From positions 1-64,000 of the forward strand of contig JAPSLB010000025.1 of the NCBI GenBank assembly GCA_031181145.1: DNA of 64,000 nucleotides, in the 5' to 3' direction. Under the pieces are notes generated by a model. The model was given only the letters and a program-made list of their open reading frames with translations. It did no database searches and was not told the origin of the DNA. Each line of letters begins with the position of its first letter. The stretch's first letter is position 1. The DNA is from Microvirga sp. GTDB lineage: Bacteria > Pseudomonadota > Alphaproteobacteria > Rhizobiales > Beijerinckiaceae. Below, in pieces: positions 11,705-54,205 of this stretch. The position numbers and the translations under genes were made by a program.

Positions 11705-12039
11705 GCAACAAAATCCACTCCCTGGGCGGAGAGCAGACAGGGGGGCGGCGAATCTGTAGATTCTTCTGCGTACCGTAGGGGCAGAACAATGAAACCCGAC
11801 ATGGACCAGATCTGCGCGCTCACCTCGTTTTCCGTCGGCACCCTCGACGGCCGGGATGCGATGATGGTGATCGAGATGGCCGCCACGGCCGAGGAGTACG
11901 AGCAAGGCGTCCGCCGGCAGATGCCGGTGGCCATGACGGCCGAGCATGCCCGCGAGCTGGGCGAGGCATTGCTGCTGGCCGCCAGGGCCGCCCTGATGGG
12001 CGACATGCCGTCATACGCCCTCAACTGAGCAGAGAAGCG
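11705..12039 (+). repeat. 335-bp direct repeat, copy 1
   Basis: By eye this segment is base-for-base the same as 14396-14730 (offset 2691). It starts at GCAACAAAATCCACTCCCTG and ends at CAGAGAAGCG. It contains the upstream region and the whole 79-aa gene. A short palindrome, GAATCT-GT-AGATTC (11750-11763), lies in its promoter-side part. Flanks on both sides differ from copy 2. Confidence 0.95.
11789..12028 (+). CDS. 79-aa hypothetical protein, copy 1 of a duplicated gene
   Basis: The 79-aa product begins MKPDMDQICALTSFSVGTLD and contains DAMMVIEMAATAEEYEQGVR and TAEHARELGEALLLAARAAL. It is small, mostly helical, with no signal peptide and no family I recognise. An identical protein is encoded at 14480-14719. 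A purine-rich AGGGGCAG stands 6-13 nt before the ATG. Preservation of both copies without a single change suggests a recent duplication. Confidence 0.75.
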   Translation: MKPDMDQICALTSFSVGTLDGRDAMMVIEMAATAEEYEQGVRRQMPVAMTAEHARELGEALLLAARAALMGDMPSYALN

Positions 12040-14395: not shown

Positions 14396-14730
14396 GCAAC
14401 AAAATCCACTCCCTGGGCGGAGAGCAGACAGGGGGGCGGCGAATCTGTAGATTCTTCTGCGTACCGTAGGGGCAGAACAATGAAACCCGACATGGACCAG
14501 ATCTGCGCGCTCACCTCGTTTTCCGTCGGCACCCTCGACGGCCGGGATGCGATGATGGTGATCGAGATGGCCGCCACGGCCGAGGAGTACGAGCAAGGCG
14601 TCCGCCGGCAGATGCCGGTGGCCATGACGGCCGAGCATGCCCGCGAGCTGGGCGAGGCATTGCTGCTGGCCGCCAGGGCCGCCCTGATGGGCGACATGCC
14701 GTCATACGCCCTCAACTGAGCAGAGAAGCG
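14396..14730 (+). repeat. 335-bp direct repeat, copy 2
   Basis: This is the second copy of the segment at 11705-12039, with no difference seen. One mismatched base precedes it (C/T at 11704/14395) and similarity stops just outside at both ends. The two copies flank the esterase and DUF1194 genes in direct orientation. Confidence 0.95.
14480..14719 (+). CDS. 79-aa hypothetical protein, copy 2
   Basis: The product is identical to that of 11789-12028. The open frame here extends further upstream by chance through unique DNA; the ATG conserved between copies and its shared upstream region argue for the start at 14480. The stop lies 13 nt from the stop of the convergent extensin-like gene. Confidence 0.75.
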   Translation: MKPDMDQICALTSFSVGTLDGRDAMMVIEMAATAEEYEQGVRRQMPVAMTAEHARELGEALLLAARAALMGDMPSYALN

Positions 14731-45291: not shown

Positions 45292-45735
45292 TTGATCTTA
45301 CTCCTGTCTGTTGGCGTGCCGATCTTGTCGCTAGGGAACCTTAATGGCGGCTTCCGTGCCGGAGTGCAATATGCCCGGCAAAGGCCGCGTCGATCCGGAA
45401 CAGACGGCATGCAGCCCTGTGCTCGCGGGGTCCCCCCGCACGGGACCCGCGCCGCTAGCAGGCTTGCATTCGCGGACAACAGGACTATCTTGTAAGTGTT
45501 ATGAATACGCTTGTGCAAAATCTTCGCCTTCTGACGCACGCGGGTTGCCTCAAAGCAGGAAGGTAAGCCCCAGGAGCCGGCTTGACCCGCTGTGGTCGCC
45601 GGCGCTTCGGGGCCTCAAACATCTCCCCACGACCATGCCGCCTCATGCGCCTGATCAGGCACATGTCAGCCAGTCATGTCTGCCCTGCGGGAGCGCGCCC
45701 GCGCGCCCGGCAGCGACCGTTTTGAGGAGGTTTTC
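45292..45735. other. Divergent intergenic region, no gene
   Basis: This 444-bp gap between divergent gdhA and the first Rnk-like gene has no convincing coding frame. It contains a GCCGGC pair separated by 16 nt (45575-45602) and two GCCTCAAA copies (near 45547 and 45611). I could not assign a riboswitch. Confidence 0.5.
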
Positions 45736-46185
45736 ATGAACGTGCACCAGGATCTCCCCCCGATCATCCTCGCGGCCAACGACTACAACCGCCTGCTGTT
45801 CACCGCGATGATTCGGCAGAAACACGACCGCCGGGCGCACGACTTCCTGCTCAAGGAGCTGCGCCGCGCAGAGGTCTGCCATCCGGCGGCGTTGCCGGAG
45901 AATGTCGTCTCGACGAATTGCCGTGTGATCTATCGCGTCGACAACGAGCCGAGATCGCGCGCACACCTCCTCGTCCATCCGGAAGACCTCGTCTGGCCCG
46001 GTGCGGAGATCTGCGTGACCACGCCGCTGGGAACGGCGCTTCTCGGCCTGCGCGTCGGCGACCGCATGGCGTTCGTGGAGACGGATGGCAGTGCCCACGA
46101 GGTGTTCGTGGAGGGCATCGGCCTCCGCTTCCTGGACGACGGCTCGACCGTCACGCGCATCCCTGGCGGCATCATGTGGGTCTGA
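45736..46185 (+). CDS. Rnk/GreA C-terminal-like protein 1
   Basis: This 149-aa protein has an N-terminal helical part (AANDYNRLLFTAMIRQKHDR, RAHDFLLKELRRAEV) and a GreA/GreB C-terminal FKBP-like domain (LLVHPEDLVWPGAEICVTTP, LGTALLGLRVGDRM). It is like Rnk, which binds RNA polymerase near the secondary channel, but with an extra C-terminal tail (IPGGIMWV). It belongs to the LVHPED subclass with the protein at 47692. GAGGAGG precedes the ATG. It is followed 15 nt on by a second member. Confidence 0.82.
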   Translation: MNVHQDLPPIILAANDYNRLLFTAMIRQKHDRRAHDFLLKELRRAEVCHPAALPENVVSTNCRVIYRVDNEPRSRAHLLVHPEDLVWPGAEICVTTPLGTALLGLRVGDRMAFVETDGSAHEVFVEGIGLRFLDDGSTVTRIPGGIMWV

Positions 46186-46200
46186 GGCGACAGGGACACC

Positions 46201-46638
46201 ATGATCAAGCAGGAAAAACTTCCACCCGTGACGATCTCGGCGGGTGACTACGACCGCCTTGCCTGGATCGCGACCAGCGGCATGGACGATTCCCGGGACC
46301 GCCAGGCCGCCGCGATGCTTGCCAACGAGTTGATGCGGGCGACCGTCGTGACGGAAAGGGCAATCCCACGATCTGTGGCAACGATGCATGCGCGGCTGGA
46401 ATTCCGGGATGACGTCACTTGGGATGTCCGGTGCGCCACCTTGGTCTATCCCGACGAAGCCGATGGCGAGCCGGACCGGATCTCCGTGCTGACCCCCATC
46501 GGGGCGGCGCTGATCGGCCTGCGCGGGGAGCAGTCGATCACCTGGAAGACATCGAAGGGGTGGCGCAGCCTGACGCTGCTGCGCGTCCTCTACCAGCCGC
46601 ATGGACAGTTCATCGAGCCGTGGAGGGAAATCTCATGA
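46201..46638 (+). CDS. Rnk/GreA C-terminal-like protein 2
   Basis: This 145-aa protein has the Rnk layout: SAGDYDRLAWIATSGMDDSR, a helical segment (LANELMRATVV), then LVYPDEADGEPDRISVLTPI and GAALIGLRGEQSITWKT. It belongs to the LVYP/ISVL subclass with 49919 and 51971. It lies in tandem with protein 1 but is clearly different from it in sequence, so the pair is old or came from separate sources. Confidence 0.85.
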   Translation: MIKQEKLPPVTISAGDYDRLAWIATSGMDDSRDRQAAAMLANELMRATVVTERAIPRSVATMHARLEFRDDVTWDVRCATLVYPDEADGEPDRISVLTPIGAALIGLRGEQSITWKTSKGWRSLTLLRVLYQPHGQFIEPWREIS

Positions 46639-46707
46639 GGCATGTCCGGGCGGTCGCGCCCGACGGCTGGCGTCCTGGACCGGCCTTCTCATGATGGCGG
46701 ATCGATT

Positions 46708-46824
46708 ATGCCGAGCCACGTGGTTTCATCCGCAGCGCTTATCCTGGGCTGCTTCCTCGTCTACCAAGTGGTCGTTCGCCCGGGGAGCGCATCGCATCCC
46801 GACGACCGCAAAGCCCGGGAGTGA
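46708..46824 (+). CDS. Possible 38-aa membrane peptide
   Basis: The frame MPSHVVSSAALILGCFLVYQ, VVVRPGSASHPDDRKARE has one hydrophobic segment and a basic tail. The ribosome binding site is weak (GGCGGA). It may be chance; the stretch up to the hemD end is otherwise empty. Confidence 0.3.
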   Translation: MPSHVVSSAALILGCFLVYQVVVRPGSASHPDDRKARE

Positions 46825-46932
46825 ACCCTCGACAGAGCCATGTCGTCCCCAGCGGTGGTCCACCCCGAAGGCCTTGCGGAGCATCGGCAGCCTTGAACGG
46901 TATCGGGGCGCTGCCGGAGCCCGTTCCGGAGA

Positions 46933-47682
46933 TCACCCCTCTCTTCGGACTTTGGGCATTCCCGCGGCGACATGCAGAACGGCATCGACGATACCGTCGA
47001 TGCTGGGTGTTTTTGAGACGACCACCTGACCGAAGCCCGCCGGTCGCAGTGCCTCCGCCACCTTTGCGCTGATCGCTACGGCCGTCATGCAGGCGCAGGC
47101 ACTCACGATGCCGGACGCGATGACGAGGCTGCAGAAAATGGCCGCCGTCCGCGCGGACAGGAACACGGCCGCATTAACACGCTCTTGGGAGAGCTCGCGC
47201 CTGACCTTCATGCTCAATCGCTCCGCCGCGAAGGCACGGTAAACGACCACGTGATCAGCGGCCAATCCCGCCGGTGCGAGGCTGGCGGCGAGATCGAGCG
47301 TGATGTTCAAGCCGCTGAGATAGAGAAGCGGCCCCGCATGCGGGGCCGCGTGCCGGCGGACATAGCCGATGAGGCTCACCGCCGTCCCGTCTGCGGCTTG
47401 GACATTCGAGAAACCTTCGGCGAGGAGCGGCGCCGCGGTGTCCGGCCCGACCGCGTAGATCGGCATGTCCCGACGAACCCCGTGAATCCGGAGGAATTCG
47501 CGGGCTGCGTTGGCCGACGTGAGCATCAGCGCCTGTCGGCCGGCAAGGACATCCGGGCTCCAGGAAACCGGAACGATCCTGAGCAGGGGCTCCCCGAGCC
47601 ACTCGATGCCCTGCCTCTTGAGGACGGCCCCAAGCTCTTCCGTTTGCGCCTGCGGACGCGTCAGCAGTACCCGCATCGCCAT
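46933..47682 (-). CDS. hemD: Uroporphyrinogen-III synthase
   Basis: This 249-aa protein has the HemD pattern: MRVLLTRPQAQTEELGAVLK, MLTSANAAREFLRIHG, PIYAVGPDTAAPLLAEGFSN, LYLSGLNITLDLAASL and AVFLSARTAAIFCSL. It closes the tetrapyrrole ring for haem and cobalamin. Its position among stress-type genes, apart from other hem genes, suggests it may be a second copy. Confidence 0.86.
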   Translation of the reverse strand: MAMRVLLTRPQAQTEELGAVLKRQGIEWLGEPLLRIVPVSWSPDVLAGRQALMLTSANAAREFLRIHGVRRDMPIYAVGPDTAAPLLAEGFSNVQAADGTAVSLIGYVRRHAAPHAGPLLYLSGLNITLDLAASLAPAGLAADHVVVYRAFAAERLSMKVRRELSQERVNAAVFLSARTAAIFCSLVIASGIVSACACMTAVAISAKVAEALRPAGFGQVVVSKTPSIDGIVDAVLHVAAGMPKVRREG

Positions 47683-47691
47683 CTCGCCCCG

Positions 47692-48147
47692 CTAGATCCC
47701 GATCGGCACGAACGCACCGGTGACCCTCGGCCCGACGTCCTCGACTTCAACGCATGCGCCCATTGGCCTGTCCGAGCCGATCAACGGCATCCGGTCCCCG
47801 GGCCGTAGCCCAAGGAGAGACAGGCCCAGCGGCGTCAGGACGGACAGCTCGGCGGGCGGCCAGGTGAGGTCCTCCGGATGAACCAGAGCCCGCCGTTCGG
47901 ACCGACCGCCATCGACAAGCCGGTAAGTCACGAACGTGTCGAGCGTCACCACATCCTCCGGGAGCTGATCCGCGGGGCAAAGGATGGCCCTGTGGAGTTC
48001 CTGCAGAAGAGGCTGCGCGATCGGGTGGGCCTGCTCCGCGAGTTCCTGAGCCGTCCGTATCAGGCGCCGGCGGTCATGCGGCGTCACCAGAACGGGAGGC
48101 AGCCGTGTGTTTATAGCGAATCTCCTTGTCTCGAATACCTTTGTCAT
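47692..48147 (-). CDS. Rnk/GreA C-terminal-like protein 3
   Basis: This 151-aa protein has HDRRRLIRTAQELAEQAHPI, the helical LLQELHRAILCPADQLPEDV, then LVHPEDLTWPPAELSVLTPL and GLSLLGLRPGDRMPLIG. It shares the LVHPED-x-WP-x-AE block with protein 1, marking a distinct subclass. It lies 9 nt upstream of hemD on the same strand, so the two may be coexpressed. Confidence 0.82.
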   Translation of the reverse strand: MTKVFETRRFAINTRLPPVLVTPHDRRRLIRTAQELAEQAHPIAQPLLQELHRAILCPADQLPEDVVTLDTFVTYRLVDGGRSERRALVHPEDLTWPPAELSVLTPLGLSLLGLRPGDRMPLIGSDRPMGACVEVEDVGPRVTGAFVPIGI

Positions 48148-48166
48148 CGTTTCGGAAGCGGCATTC

Positions 48167-48631
48167 TTAGGGGATCAGGGGATTGCCCGCGGGCTGAGGC
48201 TGGCCGCCCTGGGGAATGATCGCGATTGCGGCGATTTCCACGACGGCGGAGGGCTCGAACAATGCGGAAACCTCCACGAGCACCATCGCCGGATAATGAT
48301 TTCCCATGATCTCGCGGTAAACCGCGCCGAGTTCGCCCTCGCGCGCCCGGTAGAAGTCCAGGTCGAGCACGTACCATGTCATCTGCGCGATATGCTCAGG
48401 CCTCCCTCCCGCTTCGGCGAGTACCGTCCGTACGTTCCGCAGCGCCTGACGGGCCTGAGGAACGAGCCCGACGGAAGTCACCCGGCCTGCATTGTCGGCC
48501 GCAATCTGTCCGCCGACGAACACGAAGGTGCCGGTACCGGCGACCGCGTGCGAATAGCCGCAGGGGCTAGGCCATTTGGGTGGATCGACCCTGCGCAGCG
48601 GGGTCGCCAAAGACGGTGGAACGATGGTCAT
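48167..48631 (-). CDS. RidA-family protein
   Basis: This 154-aa protein has the RidA/YjgF pattern (SHAVAGTGTFVFVGGQIAAD, QARQALRNVRTVLAEAGGRP, MTWYVLDLDFYRAREGELGA, PAMVLVEVSALFEPSAVVEI). The canonical imine-binding Arg region is changed: the motif here is LVEVSALFEPSAVVEI where the Arg normally precedes Val, so it may be a non-RidA subfamily. The start is MTIVPPSL. Confidence 0.85.
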   Translation of the reverse strand: MTIVPPSLATPLRRVDPPKWPSPCGYSHAVAGTGTFVFVGGQIAADNAGRVTSVGLVPQARQALRNVRTVLAEAGGRPEHIAQMTWYVLDLDFYRAREGELGAVYREIMGNHYPAMVLVEVSALFEPSAVVEIAAIAIIPQGGQPQPAGNPLIP

Positions 48632-48702
48632 GGTGTGCTCCTGTCGGGCTCCGCAACAGAGTGGAGCGGGCCGTGATGATCCGTTTGCAATCGCGTGAAG
48701 CC

Positions 48703-48742
48703 CCCGTGGGGTGCGGACCTGACCGGCCCCGCACCCCACGGG
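48703..48742. terminator. Perfect 14-bp stem hairpin downstream of speE
   Basis: CCCGTGGGGTGCGG and CCGCACCCCACGGG pair perfectly around a 12-nt loop, ending 1 nt from the speE stop. It lies between speE and the RidA gene, so it probably ends the speE transcript. Confidence 0.7.
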
Positions 48743-48743
48743 C

Positions 48744-49628
48744 TCACGTTCCTGTTTTCAGGAGACCTGCGGATGTCGGATCGCCGCGCCGTAAGGCAGG
48801 AGAGAACGTGGAGGCAAGCGTGAACGCGGCCTGATGCACCTCGGGCGTGTAGTACCGCGTCTGAGCCCGAAGCGGCGGAAAGCGCTGCTGCAGAACCTCG
48901 CACGGAGGACACAGCGCGTCGCGGGACTCACCCGCTGCGACGAGCGCGAGCATGCCGCCGGCGTAGGTCGGAACAGGCGCGAGGTACGGCCGCACTCCGG
49001 CGAACGATCCGGAGAGCTGGTCGCAGACCATCTTCAACTGGCCGGGCTGGAAGAACGGAGCGCCACTCTGCACCACCATCAGGCCCCCGGGGCGAAGGCG
49101 GCTTCGACATGCCTGATAGAACGCCGACCCGAAGAGAGGCTCGTCCGGTCCCGCCGAGTCAGTCGTGTCGACGATGAGCACGTCGAACTGGTCCTTGGCC
49201 TCGGCCACATATTGCGTCCCGTTCATGGCCACCGTGTTCGCCCGAGGATCATCGAACGCTCCTCCCGAAACCATCGGAAGATAGCGCCGTGACAGGTCGA
49301 TCAGCTCGTCATCGAGCTCCACGAGGGTGGCCCGTTCGACGGGATGCTTCAGCACCTCCCTCAGGGTACCGCCGTCACCGCCGCCGATGATGAGCACGTC
49401 CCGCGCCGAGCCGTGGGCCATCAAGGGAATGTGGGCGATCATCTCGCGACAGATATGGTTGTCCCGCTCGGTCAATTGCACGATGCCGTCGAGCACCAGC
49501 ACCTTTCCGAAAACCGCGTTCTCGAAGATCAGCACGTCCTGGAACAACGTCCGCCAATGGTAAAGCACGGTATCGATGGAGAGCATCCGTTTGTGATGCT
49601 CGTAGAGTTTCTCCTGAAACCACGTCAC
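48744..49628 (-). CDS. speE: Spermidine synthase (polyamine aminopropyltransferase)
   Basis: This 294-aa SpeE has MTWFQEKLYEHHKRMLSIDT, LVLDGIVQLTERDNHICREM, the SAM motif VLIIGGGDGGTLREVLKHP, LVELDDELIDLSRRYLP and DVLIVDTTDSAGPDEPLF with catalytic Asp. It makes spermidine from putrescine and decarboxylated SAM. Its start overlaps the stop of a small upstream gene by 4 nt (ATGA). Confidence 0.93.
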   Translation of the reverse strand: MTWFQEKLYEHHKRMLSIDTVLYHWRTLFQDVLIFENAVFGKVLVLDGIVQLTERDNHICREMIAHIPLMAHGSARDVLIIGGGDGGTLREVLKHPVERATLVELDDELIDLSRRYLPMVSGGAFDDPRANTVAMNGTQYVAEAKDQFDVLIVDTTDSAGPDEPLFGSAFYQACRSRLRPGGLMVVQSGAPFFQPGQLKMVCDQLSGSFAGVRPYLAPVPTYAGGMLALVAAGESRDALCPPCEVLQQRFPPLRAQTRYYTPEVHQAAFTLASTFSPALRRGDPTSAGLLKTGT

Positions 49629-49813
49629 AGGAGCCCTCCCCGCACGTTCTCGGCATGGATGACCGACCCCGGCGGGAACACGCCCTCGAGGGCCCAGATC
49701 GTTTTATGCGACTGCTCATTGTCACCCATGAAGGCGCCAACCGCCGCGCAGGAGATCTCGGGTCGACGCATGCTGGTGACGTCAATCGCGCTGAGACGGG
49801 TGCATTCAGCCAT
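49625..49813 (-). CDS. 62-aa hypothetical protein coupled to speE
   Basis: The protein begins MAECTRLSAIDVTSMRRPEI and contains FMGDNEQSHKTIWALEGVFP. The start at 49813 is supported by CGGAGA 6-11 nt upstream; an ATG at 49831 lacks a site. The stop overlaps the speE ATG (ATGA), which argues for real translation. No family is recognised and it is far too short for SAM decarboxylase. Confidence 0.5.
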   Translation of the reverse strand: MAECTRLSAIDVTSMRRPEISCAAVGAFMGDNEQSHKTIWALEGVFPPGSVIHAENVRGGLL

Positions 49814-49918
49814 TCGGTTCTCCGTTGTCATGAGTCCCGCCGGTTACAAAATAGGATTGAGCCCCGCGGTCGGTGATAGCTGCAGGGCACATGACTTCCT
49901 TGGCGGATGCACGTCCAC

Positions 49919-50344
49919 CTATGCGGGCTGCGATTCCGCGGCGGGCTCGCGCACCTGCTGCACCGTCAGGCGCTTCGACTCCCCGGTGCGCGTGGTCCAA
50001 TCAATCGACTTGCCGACGGAAAGCCCGATCAAGGCCGTGCCGATGGGTGTCAGGACCGAGATCCTGCCCTTCGAGATGTCGGCCTCGTTGGGGTAGACAA
50101 GAGTCACCGTCTGCACCCGCCCCGTCATGTCGTCGCGGAAATCGACCTCGCAGCCCATGCACACGGTGTCGACGGGATGGCGCCCTTTCGGCAGGACATG
50201 CGCGCGATCAAGCTCCTCGGCGAGTTCGGCGGCAACGTCGGGCATGGTATTCGCGGCGGCGTTGGCGAGCACCGAGAGCTTCTCGTGGTCCGCTGCCGTC
50301 AGGATGATGCGCGGCTTGACGCCTCCGGTAGCTTTCTTCGTCAT
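49919..50344 (-). CDS. rnk: Nucleoside diphosphate kinase regulator (Rnk), protein 4
   Basis: This 141-aa protein is the most canonical Rnk of the cluster: PRIILTAADHEKLSVLANAA, LAEELDRAHVLPKGRHPVDT, VCMGCEVDFRDDMTGRVQTV, LVYPNEADISKGRISVLTPI and GTALIGLSVGKSIDW. The protein binds RNA polymerase in E. coli and raises Ndk activity. It stands alone, leftward, before the 54-aa gene. Confidence 0.88.
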   Translation of the reverse strand: MTKKATGGVKPRIILTAADHEKLSVLANAAANTMPDVAAELAEELDRAHVLPKGRHPVDTVCMGCEVDFRDDMTGRVQTVTLVYPNEADISKGRISVLTPIGTALIGLSVGKSIDWTTRTGESKRLTVQQVREPAAESQPA

Positions 50345-50380
50345 GTCAGGTCTCCTGTTCTGGTGTGGACACCGCGCCGG

Positions 50381-50545
50381 TCATGCGGCGCTTGGTCCGG
50401 GATCGTCGTCGTCCGCTCCCTGCGGTTCGGGGATGCTTTCCGGCTCCATGCGCCGCCGTGGCGTGAACCGGATGACCTTGCCGTCGATCTGCTCATTGTC
50501 CTGGCACCCGGGCTTGGGGGTCTGATTGTCCGGGGACTGCTGCAT
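50381..50545 (-). CDS. 54-aa polar hypothetical protein
   Basis: The protein MQQSPDNQTPKPGCQDNEQI ... EPESIPEPQGADDDDPGPSA is proline- and acid-rich and probably disordered. GAGGAGA 8-14 nt before the ATG supports it. It lies directly upstream of rnk on the same strand. Confidence 0.4.
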   Translation of the reverse strand: MQQSPDNQTPKPGCQDNEQIDGKVIRFTPRRRMEPESIPEPQGADDDDPGPSAA

Positions 50546-50939
50546 TGCACGGTCTCCTCTGCGTTGGATGAGAGACGAAACGGGGATACTTTGGGGTTTC
50601 TCGTCGAGAACTCGGGCCGATCGGCTTGCATACCGCATATGAGGCAGCCGTCGTCAGCCTGCGGCGCCCGCCAGCCGGATGTGCGGCTTGGTACTCCGCC
50701 AGGCGGAGCATGAGTTTGGAGAAGTGTTGAAGCATACCGCGGCACCGGATGCGTCAGCACCCGACCTCACAAGATGTCCGAATGTATAGGATCTTGCACT
50801 ACCCCGAACTCGGGGTGCGGATGCACGTCGAGCTCGGGGCTATTAGCCCGCGATGAGGTTGCCCGCACGAAGCAGGCCACGACGATATTCTGACAAGCTC
50901 AACATAATACGCCGATGCTGGTACACATTGCCCCGTTTG

Positions 50940-51443
50940 TCAAATCGCTACAGCCGGTGTGGCGGAATGTCCTGCCACGGGCTCGCCTTGGGGCTCTCGC
51001 CAGGCGTCGCTCGTCAGCAGGATGTGGATGGCCTCTGCATCCTTCGCGGATCTGAGGCGCGTCGCAACATCACGGTCGCGCAGCCGTCGCGCCACACAGG
51101 CCAGCGCGCGCAGATGCGTGGGATCGTCGTCGCCGGGGCTCAGCAGCAGGAATACGAGATCGGCGGGGATGTCGTCCGCAGCACCGAAATCGTGCGCGGG
51201 GTCGAGACGCGCAAAAGCGCCGATGGGATGGCTGAGGCTTGGGATCGCCGCATGAGGAATCGCGATGCCGCGCCCGAAACCGAAAGTGGATGTTTCGCCG
51301 CGCTCCAGAACTGCGCGGCAGACTGCCTCGTGATCCAGATCAGCTTCCGCCGTCGCGACGCAGGCGAGCCTATCGACGGCGTGCCGGGCGTTGCGTGCGC
51401 GCAGTCGCGGGACCACGTACGAGGGAGAAATCAGCGTTGCCAT
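50940..51443 (-). CDS. PTS EIIA-Ntr-like protein (PtsN-like)
   Basis: This protein of about 167 aa has the PTS_EIIA type 2 fold: LISPSYVVPRLRARNARHAV, the phosphorylatable His in GRGIAIPHAAIPSL, and FLLLSPGDDDPTHLRALACV. Such proteins take phosphate from NPr and regulate potassium transport and stress responses, not sugar import. Several in-frame Mets at 51443-51461 are possible starts; the family N-terminus favours MATLISPSY. No PTS transporter domain is attached. Confidence 0.82.
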   Translation of the reverse strand: MATLISPSYVVPRLRARNARHAVDRLACVATAEADLDHEAVCRAVLERGETSTFGFGRGIAIPHAAIPSLSHPIGAFARLDPAHDFGAADDIPADLVFLLLSPGDDDPTHLRALACVARRLRDRDVATRLRSAKDAEAIHILLTSDAWREPQGEPVAGHSATPAVAI

Positions 51444-51818
51444 CATGCTAGATGCCATCATCGATGCCGGCCCGGATCGGGCCACCTCATGGTTTCCGAG
51501 AGCAGGACACAGACGCTCGCCCCGTGCGGCGAGGTACCGCCATGGGATCACGGGCCCGTTTGGAGAAGCCCTTTCCGGAACAAGATGCGTTGCATGAGAA
51601 GGCGTGTGTTCATGGTATCGGGGCAACGCTTAACGGTGAGGTAAGTTCAAGCTCGCGCGGGAGCTATCCTTAAGAGTCTTCGCACATCACGTCCGTCGAC
51701 CCGTGACCGCTCACTTGAATGGCCGCTGCTTCAAACTATGTTGATGGTGCCATGCTAAGGTTGCTCAACGCTCACTTCATTGCCGTCCACGCGCCCCGCC
51801 GCGCCTCAGGCTGTTGAG

Positions 51819-51848
51819 CCAGGCGCAAGACGAACATCTTGCGCCTGG
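51819..51848. repeat. Perfect 11-bp inverted repeat in intergenic DNA
   Basis: CCAGGCGCAAG and CTTGCGCCTGG are exact inverses around an 8-nt loop in the 527-bp gap between the EIIA-Ntr-like gene and the fifth Rnk-like gene. It could be a terminator, an RNA structure in the leader of the Rnk-like gene, or an operator. The rest of that gap shows no gene. Confidence 0.6.
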
Positions 51849-51970
51849 GAGATCCTGCTGATCGGCAATCACACTGTCCATGAATGGCCCTTCGGAGCCG
51901 GAATCCGGGTGGCGCGATTTGTCCAGGTACGGCGTTACCCGCAACACGATGTCTGTTTCAGGAGAATGAG

Positions 51971-52453
51971 GTGTCCTCATCCCACATAACCCTAACTGTA
52001 TCCTCGATCGATCATACCCGGCTCGAGCGGATCGCCTCGGCCGGCATGCGAATCCGAAGAGCACCTCCTTCGGTGCAATTCCTCGCCGCAGAGCTCGAAC
52101 GGGCTCGGGTCGTCAGCCCCGAAAGCCTTCCTCCGGACGTGATCTCCATGCACTCGGTGTTCGACATCCGGGACGGGATCATCGCCCGGGTCCGGCGCGC
52201 CATGCTGGTCTACCCCGGCGAGGAAGATGCCGGATCGGGTCGGATCTCAGTGCTGTCGCCGCTCGGCGCCGCGCTGATCGGTCTGGCCGAGGGGCAGTCG
52301 TTTCAATGGCGCAGCGCCACGGGCATGCTGCGAACGCTGCAGGTCATCCGTGTGGTTCATCAGCCGGAGCCCGCGAGTGCGACTGTGGACCGGCACGGGC
52401 ACGACGACAGAGGGTCGGCGGAAAGTGGCCCGACGACGCACACGATACCTTGA
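51971..52453 (+). CDS. Rnk/GreA C-terminal-like protein 5
   Basis: This 160-aa protein has SSIDHTRLERIASAGMRIRR, FLAAELERARVVSPESLPPD, then LVYPGEEDAGSGRISVLSPL and GAALIGLAEGQSFQWRS, followed by a polar tail of about 30 residues. It is closest to proteins 2 and 4. The start is probably GTG at 51971 with AGGAG 6-10 nt upstream. Confidence 0.83.
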   Translation: MSSSHITLTVSSIDHTRLERIASAGMRIRRAPPSVQFLAAELERARVVSPESLPPDVISMHSVFDIRDGIIARVRRAMLVYPGEEDAGSGRISVLSPLGAALIGLAEGQSFQWRSATGMLRTLQVIRVVHQPEPASATVDRHGHDDRGSAESGPTTHTIP

Positions 52454-52495: not shown

Positions 52496-52843
52496 TTAGG
52501 CGAGCACGGAAGCCGGCGTCTCACCTCGAGATCTCTCCGAGATCCGCTGTTTCCTCCGATGCAATCGGCGGCCGATCTTTCCGAGCGCCTGGTCGAATGC
52601 CCGATCGCAGTCGCCCGCTGACGCCTCGGCCACGATCATCTTGAGATTGTTGACTTGGACGTTGATGGTGCAGCTGTACGAGTGTCCCTCACGGGTGAAC
52701 CCGACAGTCGCGTGGTTCAAATGCCCGAAATACATCCTGGTCACATGCACGATCTCCTCCCGCACCTTATGAGGCAGGGGCTCCGCGAGCTCGATGTTGG
52801 AACTGTTGATCTTGATCGGCGCGCCTGTGCCATTCTGGTTCAT
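52496..52843 (-). CDS. hpf: Ribosome hibernation-promoting factor/RaiA-like protein
   Basis: This 115-aa HPF-like protein has PIKINSSNIELAEPLPHKVR, VTRMYFGHLNHATVGFTREG, VNVQV-type strands (CTINVQVNNLKMIVAEASAG) and DCDRAFDQALGKIGRRLHRR. Size fits the short form that dimerises or silences ribosomes in slow growth. AAGGAGG before the ATG at 52843 decides the start. It is convergent with the fifth Rnk-like gene. Confidence 0.85.
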   Translation of the reverse strand: MNQNGTGAPIKINSSNIELAEPLPHKVREEIVHVTRMYFGHLNHATVGFTREGHSYSCTINVQVNNLKMIVAEASAGDCDRAFDQALGKIGRRLHRRKQRISERSRGETPASVLA

Positions 52844-52854
52844 GAATGCCTCCT

Positions 52855-53055
52855 TCATAGGGTCGTGGCGTGGAACTTGTCCCGATGAGGCATGCGCCTC
52901 ATCGTGCCCTTCCGGAGAGTGTCGTCCGGGTGTCGGGGCGTTTTGGATCTGGCCGGTTCATCGTTTCCGTAGGAACACCAAGGGCACCGTGCCGCAGCCC
53001 TTGGCAAACTGCGCTTGCAGATACTGCAGACGTCCCGCCGTAAGCGCCTCAGCAT
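52855..53055 (-). CDS. Small zinc-ribbon-like protein
   Basis: The 66-aa frame has CSIC then CPWC eleven residues on, a likely four-Cys zinc ribbon, in MLRRLRRDVCSICKRSLPRA...CPWCSYGNDE. AGGAG stands 8 nt before the ATG, a good start signal. It ends 11 nt upstream of the hpf start. It overlaps the frame at 52958-53146, and both cannot be judged with certainty. Confidence 0.45.
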   Translation of the reverse strand: MLRRLRRDVCSICKRSLPRAAARCPWCSYGNDEPARSKTPRHPDDTLRKGTMRRMPHRDKFHATTL

Positions 53056-53146
53056 CGATGATCTCCTGTCGAGTTTTGTTCGCCGTTGACAGCCTGCGCA
53101 AAAGTCGCCGCCGGGAAAGCAGTCGGTGTTTCAGGTCTTCGCGCAT
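52958..53146 (-). CDS. Possible 62-aa basic helical protein
   Basis: The frame begins MREDLKHRLLSRRRLLRRLS and contains EIIDAEALTAGRLQYLQAQF. It is basic and helical. It starts 20 nt after the stop of the upstream membrane gene but lacks a ribosome binding site, and it overlaps the zinc-ribbon frame by 98 bp. One of the two is probably spurious. Confidence 0.3.
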   Translation of the reverse strand: MREDLKHRLLSRRRLLRRLSTANKTRQEIIDAEALTAGRLQYLQAQFAKGCGTVPLVFLRKR

Positions 53147-53166
53147 GTCGGCTTTTTCACATGTGG

Positions 53167-53355
53167 CTAGCGCCTCTTGCCCGGCTGAAATGCGTGTGTC
53201 GCCGCCACTCGGGCTGCAAGGATCAGCGTCAGGGAAGCCGACAGGCCCAGGATGCTGATCGACGCCGCGCATCCGAACGCCTCGCCCAGACTTTCCCAGA
53301 AGATGACCTGCGCAAACGTCAGCGCGAGGAGGGTTGCAAAGATGACAATGGACAT
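53167..53355 (-). CDS. 62-aa two-helix membrane protein
   Basis: The protein MSIVIFATLLALTFAQVIFW ... GCAASISILGLSASLTLILA has two probable membrane helices and a basic end. GAGG lies 4 nt before the ATG. It is the first of a short leftward series ending at hpf. No family recognised. Confidence 0.5.
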   Translation of the reverse strand: MSIVIFATLLALTFAQVIFWESLGEAFGCAASISILGLSASLTLILAARVAATHAFQPGKRR

Positions 53356-53989
53356 GACCTCACCATGCGGCGCTCTCGTCGAGACGCCGTTCCTGAAATT
53401 TCGATTGTGTTCGCAAGCAAACCCGCACGCCGGTGCGGTCCTCGGCGTGGATGGCGATGCAGTTACGACTTGTCGGGTTTTTGCGGTGTAACGATCATCC
53501 CCGGACTACAAGCGTCCGGGGCTCAGGATCCCGTCTTCAGACGGCCTGCGCGCAAAGCGGAAATGGTACGGATCGTAGACATGATGCCGCTAATGTCGGC
53601 CGCGTCCTCTCGAAAGTCAAGGTTGGCGGCTGCGTCGGAAAGTGCCGTTTGACAATGCGTTGCGGCGGCCTAAGTTGATCGCGCTATGTTGACGTCTTCA
53701 AGACATGTCCGTGGCCACTGCCACGCAGGAACCCTGATCGCGGGACATTAGCCCCGAGGTTCGGCGCCGACAATGCGCGAGCCCCGGGGTACGAGAGCTG
53801 CCAAACATTCAAGCAGACACAGCCCAGACGTTTGGAAGGTCCGGGTACGATATCGGCCGAATTTCTCGCAGGTTGGCTCGCCACGTCGCAGTGATCTCAT
53901 GTCCCATGCTCGTATCGAGGCGCACACGGCCGGAACGCGGGACCCCAACGGCGGCAATGTGAGGACCGCGACAGGCGAGGCGGAGTGCA
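53356..53989. other. Intergenic region, no gene seen
   Basis: This 634-bp stretch lies between divergent small genes. Open frames here are short, lack ribosome binding sites and overlap each other. I see no RNA gene. Confidence 0.5.
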
Positions 53990-54205
53990 ATGAGCAAAGA
54001 ATCGAAGAAGAGATCGTTGAGCTATCGAGTCACGACGCCAGAGGAACGGATCAAGCGTCAGGCGGAGAACGAAGAACGCTCCGAGCGCATCATCGCACTG
54101 AGGGCGCAGGGCCTCAACTACGTCACCATCGCGCTCCGCATGGGCTTGAGCACGAGCACCGTCAGTCGCATTGCGCGGGAATACAGCCGGCAGTCACACG
54201 AGTAG
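53990..54205 (+). CDS. 71-aa helix-turn-helix protein
   Basis: The protein has a basic N-terminus (MSKESKKRSLSYRVTTPEER), a charged helix and a C-terminal HTH of the resolvase/GcrA-like type (GLNYVTIALRMGLSTSTVSR, IAREYSRQ). It is probably a DNA-binding protein. The stop codon is also the first base set of a palindromic-repeat remnant. Function is unknown. Confidence 0.6.
   Translation: MSKESKKRSLSYRVTTPEERIKRQAENEERSERIIALRAQGLNYVTIALRMGLSTSTVSRIAREYSRQSHE

Follow-up and report, generated by a model that had tools for sequence, protein, structure and literature searches.

The first 64,000 nucleotides of contig JAPSLB010000025.1 of Microvirga sp. (assembly GCA_031181145.1), hereafter the window, carry five Rnk-family genes, RnkA to RnkE, within 6.7 kb, interspersed with hemD, RidA, speE, EIIA-Ntr-like (ptsN) and hpf genes, as a preliminary description of the sequence had proposed. 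What that description missed is a family of short leader elements 5' of the Rnk operons, hpf included, and these are the strongest hint that the genes act jointly. The island appears to be organized in five operon units (RnkA-B; orf-RnkD-speE-ridA-RnkC-hemD; RnkE; orf-hpf; and a small helix-turn-helix (HTH) gene), and each unit opens with a promoter-like site, an upstream open reading frame (uORF) of 19–21 codons and a GC hairpin at the uORF stop. The island genes, with the evidence for each in brackets, are:

45736..46185, + strand: RnkA, HPEDL clade, Rnk-like, basic coiled-coil tip (Pfam, NCBIfam, tree, AlphaFold2, tip charge)
46201..46638, + strand: RnkB, canonical-side Rnk, 15 nucleotides (nt) 3' of RnkA (Pfam, NCBIfam, tree)
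46933..47682, - strand: hemD, with a second hemD elsewhere in the genome
47692..48147, - strand: RnkC, HPEDL clade, start codon uncertain (Pfam, NCBIfam, tree)
48167..48739, - strand: RidA-family protein (Pfam, NCBIfam)
48744..49628, - strand: speE, spermidine synthase (NCBIfam)
49919..50344, - strand: RnkD, nearest to an ordinary Rnk, weakly acidic tip (Pfam, NCBIfam, tree, tip charge)
50381..50545 or 50381-50638, - strand: small conserved open reading frame (ORF) of 54 or 85 amino acids (aa) with an acidic DDDDPGPSAA tail, directly 5' of RnkD
50940..51626, - strand: PtsN-like EIIA-Ntr; the genome encodes a second PTS_EIIA_2 protein (Pfam, NCBIfam)
51971..52453, + strand: RnkE, GTG start, basic coiled-coil tip RIRRAPP (Pfam, NCBIfam, AlphaFold2, tip charge)
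52496..52858, - strand: hpf, short ribosome hibernation factor (Pfam, NCBIfam)
52958..53272, - strand: small ORF 5' of hpf, conserved mainly at its C terminus
53990..54205, + strand: 71-aa HTH protein, HTH_23 (Pfam)

All five Rnk ORFs were found at the coordinates first reported, and the GreA/GreB C-terminal-like domain ascribed to them was recovered by Pfam, with both Rnk_N (PF14760) and GreA_GreB (PF01272) matching RnkA-E at E<0.004. The shared TPxGxxLxGL segment also withstood alignment: V-x-x-P-x-G-x-x-L-x-G-L is invariant and in register, and forms part of 19 invariant columns. RnkB, RnkD and RnkE lie above both Pfam cut-offs and above that of NCBIfam NF004396 (115, 155 and 117 bits versus 109). 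RnkA and RnkC are divergent, with 87 and 89 bits for NF004396 and with Rnk_N under its cut-off as well; against the GreA_GreB cut-off of 26.9, RnkA scored 26.4, just under, in one search and 28.0, over, in another. On these scores we would file RnkA and RnkC as Rnk-like, short of proven Rnk. The five clustered genes are real, but they are not the whole set: the eight GreA_GreB matches of this genome comprise RnkA-E, a sixth Rnk on another contig (C32) and two others.

A tree of the family (120 rows, 145 columns) has a single deep split, with support 99/99, between an HPEDL type (44 rows) and a canonical type (76 rows). The two sequence subclasses recognized earlier thus correspond to its opposite sides, A and C against B, D and E. 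On the HPEDL side are A, A2 and C, with partners from other genera on long branches; the canonical side has the Rnk of the genus, D, and then B, B2 and E. The classes are separate, mostly well-supported lineages. Partner genes of family f42 were considered as HPEDL orthologs and rejected, because their placement on that side rests on long branches only. Comparison of the window genes with their orthologs indicates purifying selection in all five classes (pN/pS 0.16–0.40).

RnkA and RnkE were modelled with AlphaFold2 (mean pLDDT 80.9 and 86.3). Both models consist of a short two-helix coiled coil, with helices of 12–15 residues, and the GreA C-terminal fold, whose absence the preliminary description would have taken as evidence against its proposal. 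Their best PDB matches are 2pn0 from Nitrosomonas europaea and E. coli Rnk (3bmb), which have in common with the Microvirga proteins the domain order, the short coiled coil with GreA C-terminal fold (A and E) and the PxGxxLxGL segment. The long coiled coil with an acidic tip that is the hallmark of GreA/GreB was not found, the helices being short (in A and E) and the tips basic to weakly acidic by class. Tip charge was taken over an 11-residue stretch around the inter-helix loop in 114 of the 120 tree rows, 15 of which were left as "other", and in the two PDB sequences. The tip is basic in E (mean charge +2.8, 9 rows) and A (+2.1, 19) and weakly acidic in C (-1.2, 12) and D (-1.3, 32); the means are +1.7 (6) in A2, +0.8 (6) in B2, +0.2 (15) in B and -0.3 (15) in "other", with E. 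coli Rnk and 2pn0 each at -1. Since secondary-channel factors typically carry two important acidic tip residues, according to the relevant part of one review (PMC4598747), some Rnk variants have the opposite tip.

E. coli has one rnk gene; the Microvirga genome differs from it in its six Rnk, their deep split and their class-specific tip charge, as known here from sequences and models. Among genomes of the order, 65 of 297 have an Rnk_N match, and among those of the phylum 76 of 398 (the present genome counted in both), with a maximum outside Microvirga of 2 copies per genome; these counts may be low, since scoring was limited to the top 23 or 18 first-look candidates of each genome. With all candidates scored, NF004396 gave 0–4 matches per genome, Gre proteins counted, in 24 genomes of other families. 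Within Microvirga at least one Rnk_N match occurs in 39 of 48 genomes and 3–11 in 23 of the 48, so the number of Rnk genes exceeds what chance would give. Orthologs of RnkA (≥72% identity) were found in 21 and of RnkE (≥65% identity) in 12 of the 48.

Gene order was compared closely over the cluster stretches of 21 other Microvirga genomes and our own. In 11 of these 22, all five classes lie in one stretch with identical order and relative strands, interspersed with ridA, speE, ptsN, hpf and mostly also hemD, so that the scattering in relatives which would have spoken against the cluster was not seen. In G026 RnkA and RnkB share a single open frame. In G036 A, B, C and E are clustered with D about 16 kb off; other genomes have subsets of the classes or a second A2-B2 pair. 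Such a pair, found at L050, L051, L056-L058 and L078, adjoins rsuA in L050 and L051, and has its own leader type, ending in RGGRLLAG or similar, plus a hairpin. The cluster is plasmid-borne in M. lotononidis and Microvirga sp. VF16, and in G028 it lies on a single 4.4-Mb contig. Between RnkD and speE, 12 of 15 related stretches carry speD (74–100% in 11, 63% in 1; the query was drawn from one of the 15), and the corresponding site here, window 49625-49919, gives a weak 27% match. Outside the genus, plasmid p195_1 of Bradyrhizobium sp. 195 (L062), typed as conjugative, carries multiple genes of Gre/Rnk type in the neighbourhood of PAS, DUF488 and universal stress genes, possibly a parallel island.

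Plain gene amplification, in which several Rnk are kept for dosage or by hitch-hiking of the island and have no distinct roles, would accord with the patchy presence, second copies, partial clusters and plasmid location in two strains. We nevertheless regard it as unlikely, as the classes form separate lineages with characteristic tips under purifying selection, and recur jointly in one order. We favour a diverged set of Rnk proteins under common control, for which the leaders provide the main argument. The window leaders are:

45501..45566, + strand: leader uORF 1, 21 codons, MNTLVQNLRLLTHAGCLKAGR-stop, 5' of RnkA-RnkB, with promoter-like TTGCAT-16-TATCTT
45567..45613, + strand: hairpin directly after the uORF 1 stop (RNA fold -31.7 kcal/mol; weak covariation)
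50843..50905, - strand: leader uORF 2, MLSLSEYRRGLLRAGNLIAG-stop, 5' of orf-RnkD-speE-ridA-RnkC-hemD
50801..50840, - strand: hairpin after uORF 2 (-30.2 kcal/mol; covariation across 29 sequences)
51752..51817, + strand: leader uORF 3, MLRLLNAHFIAVHAPRRASGC-stop, 5' of RnkE, without the common motif, peptide not conserved
51819..51848, + strand: hairpin after uORF 3 (-27.7 kcal/mol over 70 nt)
53523..53582, - strand: leader uORF 4, MSTIRTISALRAGRLKTGS-stop, 5' of orf-hpf
53499..53521, - strand: hairpin after uORF 4 (-20.3 kcal/mol over 70 nt)
53686..53751, + strand: leader uORF 5, MLTSSRHVRGHCHAGTLIAGH-stop, divergent from uORF 4, 5' of the HTH gene
53751..53790, + strand: hairpin after uORF 5, the fold taking in the last stop base (RNA fold)

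In all five the ATG follows the -10 box by 9 nt, so that the uORFs are probably leaderless. The hairpin begins 0–2 nt past the uORF stop, except in uORF 5, where the final stop base is part of it, and four of the five peptides end near [RH]AGxLxxG. A generic scan for a promoter, a near-leaderless ORF of 14–36 codons and a hairpin, with no peptide pattern, returned 12 candidates over the whole window, 6 of them with a strong hairpin, compared with 1 and 0 on the reversed sequence. Four of these 6 are the leaders of RnkA-B, orf-RnkD-speE-ridA-RnkC-hemD, RnkE and the HTH gene; that of orf-hpf, whose hairpin is weaker than the others, was found via the peptide motif. Rfam 15 has no match in the window, the region of leader 1 (45400-45760) yielding only scores far below gathering.

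The same scan over 772 kb of selected, partly overlapping loci gave 129 hits versus 4 in reversed sequence. After alternative ATGs, repeated loci and identical copies were dropped, 94 remained, many of them mutual orthologs; 66 end in [AGST]GxLxxG(x), and the ATG stands exactly 9 nt after the -10 in 75. The other 28 lack the motif, 13 of these being assigned to RnkE. A RnkA-type pattern allowing at most one mismatch had 28 matches in 23 of the 48 Microvirga genomes (reversed control, 1), 26 of them 194–670 nt upstream of RnkA or RnkB. In the 1.2 Mb (27%) of G028 that was scanned, ten uORFs carried the C-terminal motif, and ten of ten were inside Rnk islands; plasmid searches for the leader found two records, both Microvirga. 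The RnkD-type leader also stands 5' of stand-alone Rnk genes in other Microvirga genomes and on our own contig C32. In relatives, leaders are also found before a CBS-domain gene (annotated as such in VF16), before a gene that by eye is LysR-like and, judged by position, before the homospermidine synthase gene of VF16.

The promoter-like site, 21-codon uORF and hairpin are all visible in an upstream alignment of RnkA, and the frame of uORF 1 is open in all 28 distinct homologous sequences. Class-weighted residue frequencies, counted from the stop, are 0.80 for G(-2), 0.74 for L(-5), 0.70 for G(-7) and 0.54 for R(-9), on a scale whose maximum is 0.86 because the HTH pattern returned no rows and was left unscored. 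Over the last nine codons pN/pS is low in the RnkA (0.44), RnkD (0.36) and hpf (0.28) leaders. The leader sets behind these frequencies and ratios were collected with the motif itself, which makes the frequencies partly circular, and the RnkA set includes alternative starts and two CBS-type leaders; the 94 hits of the scan without a peptide pattern serve as the check. The codon patterns indicate peptide-level constraint for the RnkA, RnkD and hpf leaders, and not for the other classes.

Such constraint would also be expected if the uORFs were functional microproteins, or dual-function attenuator small RNAs acting in trans, for which peTrpL/rnTrpL of Sinorhizobium meliloti is a precedent (as outlined in part of PMC10117765). 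Two observations make this an improbable account: the RnkD and hpf leaders are more tightly constrained over their final nine codons, beside the stop and hairpin, than along the peptide as a whole, and the leader peptides of RnkE and CBS show no conservation. Control in cis, through the hairpin, remains the reading we prefer.

The RnkD-leader hairpin covaries, with 15 doubly changed cells across 29 sequences versus 4.5 on shuffling, and 0 of 500 shuffles as high. Its arms accept G-U pairs (GU in 8 and UG in 10 of the 29 at two pairs), and an inner stem pair changes from CG to UA in 8 of 29, a tolerance and a kind of change that look RNA-like. It is for this reason, and because the window repeats lie 0–2 nt from a uORF stop or take in its last base, that we consider it least likely of all that the hairpins are DNA operators for a regulator such as the 71-aa HTH protein, with the uORF incidental or a separate microprotein, even though the HTH gene adjoins the repeats and some of these, such as CCCCGAGCTC..GAGCTCGGGG, have the appearance of palindromes. 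Within the RnkA uORF, a stem that appeared to covary across leader classes was discarded as independent evidence, because the conserved L-x-A-G codons already account for its core pairs. FixK, anaerobox, EcfG and RpoN consensus sites, sought in the window and six loci, gave no consistent pattern.

The leader anatomy extends beyond the genus. Among 20 rnk loci outside Microvirga (19 from 12 other families and 1 from another genus of the same family), hand-picked from Rnk_N-matching loci and so not a random sample, 15 loci from 10 families have a uORF and strong hairpin upstream of rnk; G123, among these 15, had already been identified as carrying a leader. The expectation from the G028 background rate was 0.26, and the reversed and antisense controls gave 0 and 1. 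Most of these peptides are unlike the Microvirga motif, several ending in I-A-G/E-x-stop. In G252 and G071, both of family f36, the hairpins are followed by U-rich tracts, like intrinsic terminators. Between rna and rnk of E. coli K-12 (L211) there is a 17-codon ORF near a -10-like box, along with a GC hairpin that ends in a U-run; its stem may be either the terminator of rna or an rnk attenuator, and it was not counted because rna ends just upstream.

Known leader systems offer partial parallels. The leader of tnaCAB resembles those described here in its length of about 20 codons, its conserved residues near the stop and a candidate control element immediately downstream; the TnaC ribosome stalls at its own stop and masks the adjoining rut site, according to part of one paper (PMC8429421). 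Its anatomy of short uORF, conserved C terminus and element after the stop recurs in the RnkA, RnkD and hpf leaders, though not in the RnkE and CBS peptides. The Microvirga leaders differ from TnaC in that they lack a Trp or Pro end, have a hairpin instead of a known rut site, and form a family common to several operons. With trpL/rnTrpL of S. meliloti they share a short leaderless uORF in an alphaproteobacterium, but there is no run of regulatory codons, and the targets, instead of biosynthesis, are factors of RNA polymerase and the ribosome; by eye, none of the leader peptides in the class sets compared above shows the run of a regulated amino acid typical of classical attenuators. The likeness of RAG in the motif to SecM-type arrest peptides (RAGP) is superficial, as no proline follows RAG, the motif stands 7–9 residues before the stop, and no secretion gene was seen.

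We propose, with a probability of roughly 55%, that this is a growth-arrest island of Microvirga, in which a diverged Rnk set is combined with additional copies of hpf, ptsN and hemD and with polyamine synthesis, and in which TnaC-like, ribosome-controlled leader attenuators join the Rnk, hpf and HTH units into one regulon. The attenuation step, which we infer from the anatomy, position and conservation of the leaders, would operate at the uORF stop: a ribosome slowed or arrested there would cover the 5' arm of the hairpin and keep it open, while quick release would let the hairpin form. Alone or with Rho, the hairpin would then stop transcription into the Rnk and hpf genes or let it through, and expression of the operons would thus track the state of translation. 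The Rnk variants, differing in tip charge, may bind the RNA polymerase secondary channel as E. coli Rnk does and there displace DksA or the Gre factors, with HPF meanwhile parking ribosomes. Competition among such variants at the channel, as first suggested, is plausible; RnkA and RnkB, encoded 15 nt apart, might even act as a heteromer, and the product of the acidic-tailed ORF, which has no Pfam match, is a possible partner of Rnk. The targets (hpf, polyamine synthesis, Rnk) fit growth arrest. Overall, the interpretation given in the preliminary description is supported in part.

Several observations weigh against this proposal. Collection by motif favours conservation in the leader sets. The RnkE leader has no common motif, and last-nine-codon pN/pS is 1.41 for RnkE and 1.93 for CBS, whose peptides are thus not conserved, and 0.80, a weak signal, for RnkA2. 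Covariation is much weaker in the RnkA hairpin than in the RnkD-leader hairpin, and the RnkA leader, taken over its full 239 nt, has no unusual stability (z -1.0). The Microvirga hairpins lack the U-run of an intrinsic terminator. The generic scans found no such leader for ptsN, and one hit assigned to gdhA (window 45737-) lacks the motif and looks like chance. Outside the genus, G675, G113, G141, G181 and G229 (5 of the 20 loci) had no uORF-hairpin match at the criteria used.

A broader form of the growth-arrest proposal, which we put forward tentatively and at somewhat worse than even odds, is that a nascent-peptide switch on rnk exists throughout the Hyphomicrobiales and has been multiplied in Microvirga into a regulon, in which a single family of leaderless peptides would sense ribosome state and jointly set several secondary-channel proteins and a hibernation factor.

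According to the passages on Rnk in two reviews (PMC4598747, PMC8632087), E. coli Rnk binds the secondary channel with an effect described as unknown; it is reported to compete with Gre factors and DksA on RNA polymerase (PMC4598747), and one of the two reviews notes that rnk deletion has no phenotype in normal growth. Rnk also increases when Pseudomonas aeruginosa enters growth arrest under anoxia, its effect there being called uncharacterised (PMC8632087, in part). The open-access literature searched contained nothing on a Rnk/leader-peptide system, and the view that the function and clustering are undescribed stands to that extent; most subscription journals lay outside the search, so absence from print is not proven. 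The 23 of 48 Microvirga genomes with 3–11 Rnk genes, together with an upstream element shared with other families, offer a setting for testing what Rnk does and which signal induces it. Should the leaders respond to ribosome state, they would link translation directly to hibernation and to the accessory factors of RNA polymerase, and under the broader proposal one translation-sensing circuit would slow transcription and translation together.

The island hpf, hemD and ptsN are not sole copies, since the genome has 5 S30AE, 2 HEM4 and 2 PTS_EIIA_2 matches; the five S30AE (HPF-type) matches lie on contigs C16, C22, C25, C58 and C70. Elsewhere in the window, on the + strand at 11789-12028 and 14480-14719, are two 79-aa ORFs, 2.7 kb apart, whose first 40 residues are identical.

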